Position numbers and translations under genes: made by a program. Under the pieces are notes generated by a model. That model was not told the DNA's origin, made no database searches, and saw nothing but the letters and a program-made list of their open reading frames with translations. 64,000 nucleotides of DNA from Phycisphaerales bacterium (GTDB lineage Bacteria > Planctomycetota > Phycisphaerae > Phycisphaerales > SM1A02): contig JAJDDB010000035.1 in the NCBI GenBank assembly GCA_029260575.1, positions 186,001 to 250,000 of the forward strand, written 5' to 3'. Numbering within the stretch: position 1 is the stretch's first letter; every line of letters starts with the position of its first letter. Positions 41,383 through 44,146 of the stretch are shown here, in pieces.

Positions 41383-42705
41383 TCACATCCAGCGCGTCGC
41401 GTGCCAGTTTTTCTTGCCACGGCGCAGCAAAAGTAACGTGCCATGCAGCAGGTCCGATGTGGTTAATCGATACTCCGCTGCAACCTTCTCGCCGTTCACA
41501 CTGACGGCGCCGTTACCGAGAAATTCCCGGGCTTCGCGCTTGGATTTCGCAAGCGATGTTTCCGGCAGCAGCTCGACCAACTCCAATCCATCTCCTTCCA
41601 GGAGTGCGCAACTGTGCTCGGTGCTGGGCGCTTCCGCAAAGACTTCGTTGAGCGTCTGCTCGTCCAAGCCGCGTACATCACCGGAGAATAATGCTTTTGA
41701 CGCTGCGATCGCGCGATCCAGTTCGGACCGGCCATGCACCATTGCGGTCATGTGCCCGGCAAGCTCGCGCTGAGCGTGTCGCTCATGCGGCGCGGAATCG
41801 CGCTGCTGGGTAATCGCTTCAATCTGCTCGCGCGGCAACAGCGTAAACAGCTTCAGCCACGCCACCGCATCTTCATCAGGGAGATTTATGAAGTATTGAT
41901 AGAACGCGTAGACGCTGGTTGCGTCTTTCGTGTCAGCGGACAGCCATATCGCAGAGCCTTCTGACTTGCTCATTTTCTTACCGTCGCTGCGCTTGATCAG
42001 CGGCGCGGTGATGCCGAACGCTTCGCCCTGTTCGTGGCCGAATTCTCTGCGAATCAGGTCGATGCCTGAGACGATATTGCCGTATTGATCCTGCCCGCCG
42101 AGCTGGACGGTGCAGTTGTGTTCTCTTCTCAGATGCAGGAAGTCAAACGCCTGCAGGATTGCGTAGCTGAATTCGGTGTAGCTGATCCCCTGCTCGCGCT
42201 CTTCCAGACGACGTTTGACGGATTCGCGCTGCACCATCTCGTTGATCGAAAAGTGTTTGCCGACGTCGCGCAGCATGTCGATGTACGACATCCGATCCAG
42301 CCAGTCGATGTTGTTGACGAGCATTGCGCTGTTGGAGAGGCTGCTGCTGAAATCCAGAAGCCGTTCGAAGATGCGCTTCTGCGATTGCACGTTGGCATCG
42401 ACGTGTTCACGGCTGATGAGATCGCGTTCGTTGTCTCTGCCGGAGGGATCACCGATGAGTCCGGTGCCGCCGCCCATGACCGCAATCGGGACGTGGCCGT
42501 GCCGCTGCCAGTGCATCAGCAGCGTCAGCGGAATAAGGTGTCCTATGTGCAGCGAATCACTGGTCGGATCAAACCCTGCGTAGGCCACTCTGCCGGGCGA
42601 CGACAGATGCTCACGCAGCGGCTGCTCCGCTGTGCTCTGATACAGCAACCCACGCCAAGTCAGCTCATCGATGAAGTCCGTAGCGCGTTTGGTTGTGGGA
42701 CACAT
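41383..42705 (-). CDS. tyrS: Tyrosine--tRNA ligase
   Basis: TyrRS charges tRNA-Tyr. This 440-residue class I enzyme has the HIGH-type motif PTSDSLHIGHL, the tyrosine-pocket region FDFLHLRREHNCTVQLGGQDQ and KMSKS as DGKKMSKSEG. It ends in an S4-like RNA-binding domain (AREFLGNGAVSVNGEKVA). ATG 42705 matches the usual length. A GTG at 42765 with AGGGG upstream would add 20 residues and cannot be excluded. Confidence 0.96.
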   Translation of the reverse strand: MCPTTKRATDFIDELTWRGLLYQSTAEQPLREHLSSPGRVAYAGFDPTSDSLHIGHLIPLTLLMHWQRHGHVPIAVMGGGTGLIGDPSGRDNERDLISREHVDANVQSQKRIFERLLDFSSSLSNSAMLVNNIDWLDRMSYIDMLRDVGKHFSINEMVQRESVKRRLEEREQGISYTEFSYAILQAFDFLHLRREHNCTVQLGGQDQYGNIVSGIDLIRREFGHEQGEAFGITAPLIKRSDGKKMSKSEGSAIWLSADTKDATSVYAFYQYFINLPDEDAVAWLKLFTLLPREQIEAITQQRDSAPHERHAQRELAGHMTAMVHGRSELDRAIAASKALFSGDVRGLDEQTLNEVFAEAPSTEHSCALLEGDGLELVELLPETSLAKSKREAREFLGNGAVSVNGEKVAAEYRLTTSDLLHGTLLLLRRGKKNWHATRWM

Positions 42706-42782
42706 AAGGTCATCCGGCGGTGTGGGTGTGAGGTCCAACTGAGGGTTCAGGACATCATCGTCCACCGCACCGCCCCTGTTTG

Positions 42783-43289
42783 TCAACCGCCGTGGGAATG
42801 CCCGTGATCGTGCTCGTCAGGATAGTACTGGCCGATCGTCTCGATCGATTCCCGCAATGTCGCAGCGACCGCGCCGTCGACCGTCTGTTTGGTCTTCATC
42901 GCATTGACCATAACCGCGTGATGCTGCGTCAACCGGGTGACGTAGTCATCCCAGCCGTCAGTGCCTCGCGCCGCCGGCTTGATCCGCTGATGCATGAAGT
43001 ATTGCGCAATCGTGTTCTGAATCCGGGTTGCGTGCTCTTCCTTGTTGGAAATCCAGCGGGTCATCTGATTGATGCTCTGCGCATCGGACTTGGTGTTGAG
43101 CTCCTGAATCTGCGCGATAGATTTCTCAATCGTATTGCAGTCTTCGAGCATCTGCTGAATGCGCAAGTGATCGTTGTAGATGCCGCAGGGAATTTCGCAG
43201 TGCGCAAGTGCAGTTGGTCGCAGAGCAGCAAGAAACAGTGCTGCGGTACAACCTGCAAGAACAGCGGTAAGCAGTACAGAACGGCGCAT
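42783..43289 (-). CDS. sodN: Nickel superoxide dismutase with signal peptide
   Basis: Ni-SOD converts superoxide to oxygen and hydrogen peroxide. The Ni-hook is HCEIPCGIYND: His 30, Cys 31 and Cys 35 of the precursor, numbered 1, 2 and 6 in the mature enzyme. A Sec-type signal peptide (2-29, LLTAVLAGCTAALFLAAL ending TALA) stands directly before the His, so signal peptidase cutting after ALA would produce the required free N-terminal His. No SodX-type protease gene is adjacent. A His-rich tail (HDHGHSHGG) could bind nickel. ATG 43289 has AAGGAG 8 bases upstream. The mature length, about 139, is longer than the usual 117. Location is inferred to be outside the cytoplasm. Confidence 0.92.
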   Translation of the reverse strand: MRRSVLLTAVLAGCTAALFLAALRPTALAHCEIPCGIYNDHLRIQQMLEDCNTIEKSIAQIQELNTKSDAQSINQMTRWISNKEEHATRIQNTIAQYFMHQRIKPAARGTDGWDDYVTRLTQHHAVMVNAMKTKQTVDGAVAATLRESIETIGQYYPDEHDHGHSHGG

Positions 43290-43424
43290 GGATCGGCTCC
43301 TTCTCGCTTTGAGTTCGAATCGCGCGAAGCGACATTCATAAGGCCTCGCAGGACTTAGGATAGCCCGTGCTGCATTGGGTTGCAGAATTCGGAATCCGTT
43401 CGGCATCCAGACGACAGCGAGTCG

Positions 43425-44057
43425 CTATCGGGTTGGCCAGTGTTTGATCTGATCTTTGATCTTCCGACGTGAAAGATAGAAACCGAGGAAGATCGGATAG
43501 ATGGCAACAATCCCACTGAACACGGCAGAGTTGATAATCAACCCGCGATGAATGTCTTCATCGCTTGGAATCGGATTCGGCTCCCTGCCGTTCTTGATCA
43601 TCTGCCGGTTGCCCGCTTCGATTATCGCCTTTTGCATCTCGATCTGACTCGGGGCGATCACCACAGTGAGAAGCGCGCCGACAAGAAGCAGACACATGCG
43701 CAGGACGGCCCATCGCGTGAGCAACTTCACGCCTTGTCGCTTGCGGCGCAGCAGTGCGACTGCACCCATCACCATCATGATGCCGAGCACAAGATTTGCC
43801 ACACCGAGCGAGAGATACGCAACCTTTACACCCATTGGAAGTGTCACATCTGCGTCCATCATCTTTGCCATGAACGTGCCGATGAAAACAGTCCACACGC
43901 TCAGGCCGACGCTGCACAGCAACCCGCCCAGCGTGTAGATCAACGAGAAGATGCCGATGACCTTCGGCCACTTTGCGGTGTCTTCAGGCGGCAGTGCAGT
44001 CGGGTCAAACTCTGTCGGCGGCGCCTTTGCCGGCTTGACGGGTGATGTTTCACTCAT
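43425..44057 (-). CDS. Four-helix membrane protein of unknown function
   Basis: This 210-residue protein has a Pro-rich N-terminus and about four hydrophobic segments: IGIFSLIYTLGGLLCSVGLS, VAYLSLGVANLVLGIMMVMG, MCLLLVGALLTVVIAP and GLIINSAVFSGIVAIYPIFLGFYL. No family motif was recognised. ATG 44057 was preferred to a GTG four codons earlier. It lies between pheS and sodN on the same strand. Confidence 0.7.
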   Translation of the reverse strand: MSETSPVKPAKAPPTEFDPTALPPEDTAKWPKVIGIFSLIYTLGGLLCSVGLSVWTVFIGTFMAKMMDADVTLPMGVKVAYLSLGVANLVLGIMMVMGAVALLRRKRQGVKLLTRWAVLRMCLLLVGALLTVVIAPSQIEMQKAIIEAGNRQMIKNGREPNPIPSDEDIHRGLIINSAVFSGIVAIYPIFLGFYLSRRKIKDQIKHWPTR

Positions 44058-44146
44058 GCGGGTTCCCACTACAACTGTTGTGTCAGAGCAGTCTTATTCC
44101 GAAATGCAGTCTGCGGGTTCCGCATCGTTTGGCCGCTCATTCATGC

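Follow-up and report, generated by a model that had tools for sequence, protein, structure and literature searches.

A widespread, uncharacterised variant of nickel superoxide dismutase, very probably exported and matured without SodX

The gene and its product

The window analysed here is a stretch of 64,000 nucleotides from contig JAJDDB010000035.1 of a Phycisphaerales bacterium (assembly GCA_029260575.1). Its minus strand carries a gene for a nickel superoxide dismutase (Ni-SOD), the only copy found in this genome (41 contigs, 95.3% complete), whose parts are collected in Table 1. The precursor begins at an ATG and reads MRRSVLLTAVLAGCTAALFLAALRPTALA up to the predicted cut and HCEIPCGIY...YYPDEHDHGHSHGG beyond it. 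An earlier note on this DNA had placed a Ni-SOD here with ALA abutting HCEIPCG, and the assignment was confirmed, along with the leader, the cut position and the His-rich end that it described; the counts in relatives given below show that these features are not accidental. Next to the gene lies a frame for a hydrophobic protein of 214 residues (window 43425-44069), which matched neither a Pfam family nor any NCBIfam model above its cut-off. For the tyrS reading frame (window 41383-42786) the listed start is a TTG bordering the Ni-SOD stop codon, and an ATG further inside is likelier; homologues of tyrS and pheS also sit close to the Ni-SOD gene at two other loci, L085 and L098.

Table 1. Features of the Ni-SOD gene and its predicted precursor (window coordinates)
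Feature	Position	Strand	Basis
Ni-SOD gene, exported type, precursor of 168 aa	42783..43289	(-)	PF09055 E=1.9e-34 and ORF; coordinates include stop
Shine-Dalgarno-like AAGGAG, 7 nt ahead of ATG	43297..43302	(-)	sequence
Predicted signal peptide, 29 aa: MRR n-region, long hydrophobic core, RPTALA c-region	43203..43289	(-)	sequence; hydropathy 2.48; layout as in L084 and L085
ALA, predicted signal peptidase I site abutting His1	43203..43211	(-)	A/G/S at -1 and small residue at -3 in 100/106 relatives
Nickel hook HCEIPCGIY, mature residues 1-9	43176..43202	(-)	H1, C2, P5, C6 and G7 invariant in A1 and A2, partly by selection
Four-helix core (predicted), mature residues 11-124	42831..43172	(-)	AlphaFold2 pLDDT 91.4; best PDB matches all Ni-SOD
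His-rich C-terminal tail HDHGHSHGG, predicted disordered	42786..42812	(-)	pLDDT <50 at mature residues 134-139; His enrichment in exported type

The Pfam Sod_Ni family (PF09055) matches the protein at 119.4 bits against a cut-off of 25 (E=1.9e-34), and HCEIPCGIY conforms to the hook pattern HCxxPCxxY. The NCBIfam equivalog model of canonical SodN, TIGR02753, gives just 34.6 bits against a cut-off of 90, and automatic annotation may therefore miss the whole exported class, described below, as sodN. Divergence from characterised enzymes is deep: the structure matches put identity to solved Ni-SOD at 12-18%, phmmer with the protein alone returned no match in the PDB, and a profile search of the PDB ranked a Ni-SOD entry first at E=0.01, short of a safe threshold. 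Because these searches were too weak, we relied on an AlphaFold2 model and a fold search. The model, made from 73 aligned sequences, has four helices and a mean pLDDT of 91.4, with the hook uncertain and the tail disordered. Its first 16 Foldseek hits are without exception Ni-SOD chains (probability 1.00, TM by target ~0.7), albeit at E values of only 0.01-0.1, and VIA-align against 1t6u gives Z 14.2 and an rmsd of 2.4 over 111 residues, the first unrelated helical protein following at Z 11.9. Predicted fold and hook together identify the protein as a Ni-SOD.

Two types of leader and the distribution of SodX

Ni-SOD genes occur in 46 of 294 genomes of the phylum, and the 50 matches comprise 14 short-leader loci with an HCD hook, 35 loci of an exported type—in which a hydrophobic leader precedes an HCE or HCQ hook—and one unclassified fragment. 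The short-leader type is present in 14 genomes, three of which hold both types, and 32 genomes have the exported type only. A scan of a genome collection yielded at least 572 confirmed stretches; the best 80 of these derive, by record title, from Planctomycetota, Verrucomicrobiota, Acidobacteriota, Desulfobacteraceae and other proteobacteria, Neomarinimicrobiota, Latescibacterota and others, and all 80 have a hydrophobic leader, allowing for misplaced starts in L113, L116 and L148. The arrangement is no peculiarity of one gene but the mark of a large class: a known enzyme in a variant form that is widespread and uncharacterised. Among the matches listed, the nearest relatives of the window protein are L084 (67%) and L085 (60%).

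The two types separate fully in a FastTree tree covering 18 short-leader and 106 exported-type sequences; support is 1.0 for the side of the 18 and, after midpoint rooting, 0.69 for that of the 106. Loci were picked by the hook pattern HCxxPC, which by itself fixes His1, Cys2 and Cys6 in our counts. Hook position 3 is Q in 74 and E in 32 of the 106 exported-type sequences, and D in all 18 of the short-leader type. Position 9 is F in 10 of the 106, the same change known as the Y9F mutant among solved structures.

The types also differ in the hydropathy of their leaders. The best 10-residue value within the last 26 leader residues runs from 0.85 to 3.35 in the exported type (median 2.60, n=106) and from -0.44 to 1.61 in the short-leader type (median 0.36, n=18), ranges that overlap slightly; with chosen start codons, across 49 phylum loci, there is no overlap save for L017, whose start is misplaced. 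The window leader, at 2.48 against -0.44 to 1.58 in the 14 short-leader loci, is not a short non-hydrophobic leader. By rule it carries the features of a signal peptidase I substrate—charged n-region, hydrophobic core, A-x-A—and by eye the only plausible cut site after the core is the junction of ALA and His1.

The earlier note had argued for ordinary signal peptidase from the ALA before HCEIPCG. That argument is weak, and we rejected ALA as a diagnostic of export: the short-leader sequences, whose leaders are of the SodX type, likewise have A-x-A abutting His1, and all 18 obey the rule of A, G or S at -1 with a small residue at -3, as do 100 of 106 exported-type sequences (six fail). With ALA common to both types, it is the hydrophobic core that carries the case for export; an ALA that follows such a core is informative.

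Cleavage at a single site does not account for every member of the class. L025 has T at -1. In four sequences that group in the tree (L073, L074, L077 and L078) and in a pair (L096 and L113), a plausible signal site precedes His1 by a few to ~25 residues. One cut by signal peptidase would not suffice to expose His1 in these proteins, and the extra residues suggest that either a further cut is made or the hook has been lost. These two subgroups and L025 limit a one-cut model to the majority, the window protein included.

The genome search for SodX that the earlier note had called for came back empty: TIGR02754 has no match in this 95.3% complete genome (nor does it exceed its cut-off in E. coli, taken as a control), and no SodX lies near any of 115 exported-type loci, where a neighbour search using a six-protein SodX profile gave one weak match only (L150, E=0.0014). 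The same profile found a SodX-like ORF near 13 of the 14 short-leader loci, the exception, L002, sitting 87 bases from a contig end. Across the phylum, TIGR02754 scores above cut-off in nine of 294 genomes, each of which has SodX and a short-leader Ni-SOD on one contig, and weaker matches adjoin the short-leader gene in four more (G044, G072, G100 and G249). A second set of 42 named genomes with the exported type, at least one of which repeats a genome of the phylum set, has SodX above cut-off in one and a weaker match beside Ni-SOD in three. These four are exactly the genomes with a second Ni-SOD, of the short-leader type (L164-L167) and within ~130 nt of the SodX-like gene; the remaining 38 have one Ni-SOD each. 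As for the weak match at L150 (L150:518-1852), it lies directly downstream of Ni-SOD and looks by eye like signal peptidase I, the sole such case in the 115 loci. The earlier note was mistaken in naming SodT as a special protease alongside SodX, for SodT is described as a nickel transporter of the UreH family (PMC4284471).

How the hook would be made, and where the enzyme would work

A hydrophobic leader, the -1/-3 rule and the lack of a SodX match together support the proposal, made in the earlier note, that export and signal-peptide removal free His1. Judged from its sequence, the enzyme is very probably exported, and we consider it highly likely that it is matured by the general protein-export route and not by SodX. 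The precursor would cross the inner membrane via Sec, and signal peptidase I would cut after ALA, leaving both the amino group and the side chain of His1 free. The HCEIPCG hook would then bind nickel as in known Ni-SOD chemistry, and would do so outside the cytoplasm, after the cut, which is what creates its N-terminal ligand. In support of the need for a free N-terminus, work on model peptides reports that N-terminal acetylation leaves the mimic inactive and that His1 matters for full activity of the enzyme (PMC5722923). The assembled four-helix subunits would then destroy superoxide in the periplasm or on the cell surface, beyond the reach of the organism's own cytosolic Fe/Mn-SOD. One signal peptidase I gene was found in the genome, with a 543-aa frame and PF10502. 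This sole copy (G000:C6:37667-39052, L031) has an unusually long frame with a large insert between conserved stretches.

Export could instead proceed by Tat, with the apo-subunit folding inside and signal peptidase freeing the hook outside. The leader does have RR at positions 2-3, followed by S-V-L, and MRRS is kept in L084 and L085, but among the 106 exported-type sequences just 26 have RR in the 36 residues preceding His1, and a three-residue n-region with a strongly hydrophobic core suits Sec better; we regard Tat export as improbable. It is equally unlikely, in our judgement, that a dedicated, unrecognised peptidase makes the cut, or that signal peptidase trims first and another enzyme finishes. 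A second cut must exist in the two subgroups with extra residues if their hooks are used, yet in the window leader the ALA-His1 junction stands alone as a plausible site past the core, and the exported type has no recurrent neighbour gene besides Ni-SOD itself. The recurrent clusters of neighbouring genes around exported-type loci consist of Ni-SOD, apparent antisense or overlapping frames of Ni-SOD, and synteny confined to a lineage (tyrS and pheS, for example); recurrent nickel-handling genes were not found among them.

It is very unlikely that the LAGC of the window leader, though it fits the lipobox pattern, marks a lipoprotein cut by signal peptidase II before Cys14, with the residues ahead of His1 trimmed later or no hook formed: this reading is weakened by the lack of Cys in the leaders of the closest listed relatives, L084 and L085, lipobox-like strings occur in just three of 106 exported-type leaders, the residues past Cys14 are still hydrophobic, and position 14 is short for a lipobox Cys. 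Equally unlikely is a leader that persists as an uncleaved membrane anchor, or a loss of SOD activity with the hook as a remnant. The core is long (~20 residues), and position 3 is E or Q where the 18 short-leader sequences have D. Yet A, S or G is kept at -1 in 100 of 106, for which an anchor would have no need, and the hook residues do not vary among the sequences sampled, in part because of how these were selected.

Maturation by general export would place the enzyme outside the cytoplasm, and the distribution of other SODs fits such a location. Of the 14 phylum genomes with the short-leader type one has Fe/Mn-SOD, and of the 11 in which that type stands alone none does; the enzyme is present in 24 of the 32 genomes limited to the exported type and in 185 of the 248 that lack Ni-SOD. 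The comparison of short-leader with exported gives p=4e-5 and that of exported with none p=1.0, with kinship not fully corrected. Counted by families with any Fe/Mn-SOD, the figures are 1 of 9 for the short-leader and 15 of 19 for the exported type (p=0.0012, again with kinship not fully corrected), and within one family, f62, seven of eight exported-type-only genomes have the enzyme. The named genomes show the same contrast, with Fe/Mn-SOD in none of the four that hold both types and in 30 of the 38 with the exported type only (p=0.0044, kinship likewise not fully corrected). From its near absence alongside the short-leader type, and its background rate alongside the exported type, short-leader Ni-SOD seems to replace cytosolic Fe/Mn-SOD and exported Ni-SOD seems not to. 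The window's own genome has one Fe/Mn-SOD, with no visible leader, and no Cu/Zn-SOD was found in it, which leaves the Ni-SOD as the sole candidate for an extracytoplasmic SOD among the three families. Cu/Zn-SOD is present in five of 14 phylum genomes with the short-leader type. Its replacement by the exported type was considered and set aside, the difference lying in the expected direction and not being significant (3/32 exported-only versus 47/248 without Ni-SOD, p=0.23).

The tail HDHGHSHGG is present as the earlier note had it, and His enrichment at the C-terminus is shared across the exported type. The last 14 residues hold a mean of 1.78 His in exported-type sequences (two or more in 62 of 106) versus 0.00 in the 18 short-leader sequences, and an internal stretch of equal length in the exported type holds 0.23; the enrichment of C-terminal over internal sequence marks the tail as a real trait of the class. 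That so short a tail may collect nickel locally is speculative, and zinc or copper binding would look alike.

Relation to known systems and meaning

Dupont and colleagues reportedly surveyed sodN in 2008, and SodX is said to have been the subject of a paper by Eitinger in 2004. With the canonical, SodX-dependent SodN of Streptomyces and marine cyanobacteria the window protein shares PF09055, the His1-Cys2-x-x-Pro-Cys6 hook and a four-helix subunit. It departs from SodN in its leader (a hydrophobic signal peptide, not a short polar sequence), in lacking SodX, in the class-wide E or Q at hook position 3 and in a His-rich C-terminus, as well as in the low identity and TIGR02753 score given above. 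In an algal ubiquitin-NiSOD fusion, removal of ubiquitin exposes His1. This fusion, as reported, resembles the exported type in having an alternative N-terminal partner in place of a SodX-type leader, and is unlike it in that the partner is ubiquitin rather than a signal peptide and the host is eukaryotic (PMC6332867). Periplasmic Cu/Zn-SOD (SodC) is alike in its reaction and in the compartment proposed here, but is an unrelated protein with other metals and was not found in the window's genome.

The nearest precedent comes from a signal-strapping study, whose Table 1 includes a planctomycete Ni-SOD, Roseiconus lacunae WP_230780104.1, with a signal peptide ending in ASA that abuts His (PMC12537917). 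In the available portion of that study this protein serves solely as a search query, its signal peptide retrieving many Ni-SODs; an N-terminal His site made by signal removal, and a planctomycete example, are therefore already in print. Other secreted metalloproteins are described there as acquiring an N-terminal His ligand in the same way. LPMO, CopC and DUF4198 proteins are examples in which signal-peptide removal creates a metal ligand (PMC12537917), although these have other folds and are mostly copper enzymes or have metal-transport roles. Ni-SOD is described as cytosolic and dependent on SodX; for cyanobacteria, one account calls it cytoplasmic and considers strains without SodX possibly unable to use it (PMC8346466). 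Our literature search found no account of an exported, SodX-free Ni-SOD class, of its distribution or of the Fe/Mn-SOD contrast; older subscription literature lay outside its scope, and an earlier description is possible.

It is conceivable, though we hold it to be doubtful, that Ni-SOD comprises two compartment lineages: a cytosolic one that is matured by SodX and replaces Fe/Mn-SOD, and an exported one, spread over many phyla, that would depend on housekeeping signal peptidase and be loaded with nickel outside with the help of its own His tail. The A-x-A of the cytosolic type would then be a signal-peptide relic and SodX a tamed relative of signal peptidase, with the exported form possibly ancestral. 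A large SodX-free class built to expose His1 alters how Ni-SOD genes should be counted and located. It also makes testable both the route by which nickel would reach an enzyme outside the cytoplasm and the possible origin of the SodX route from ordinary signal-peptide removal.
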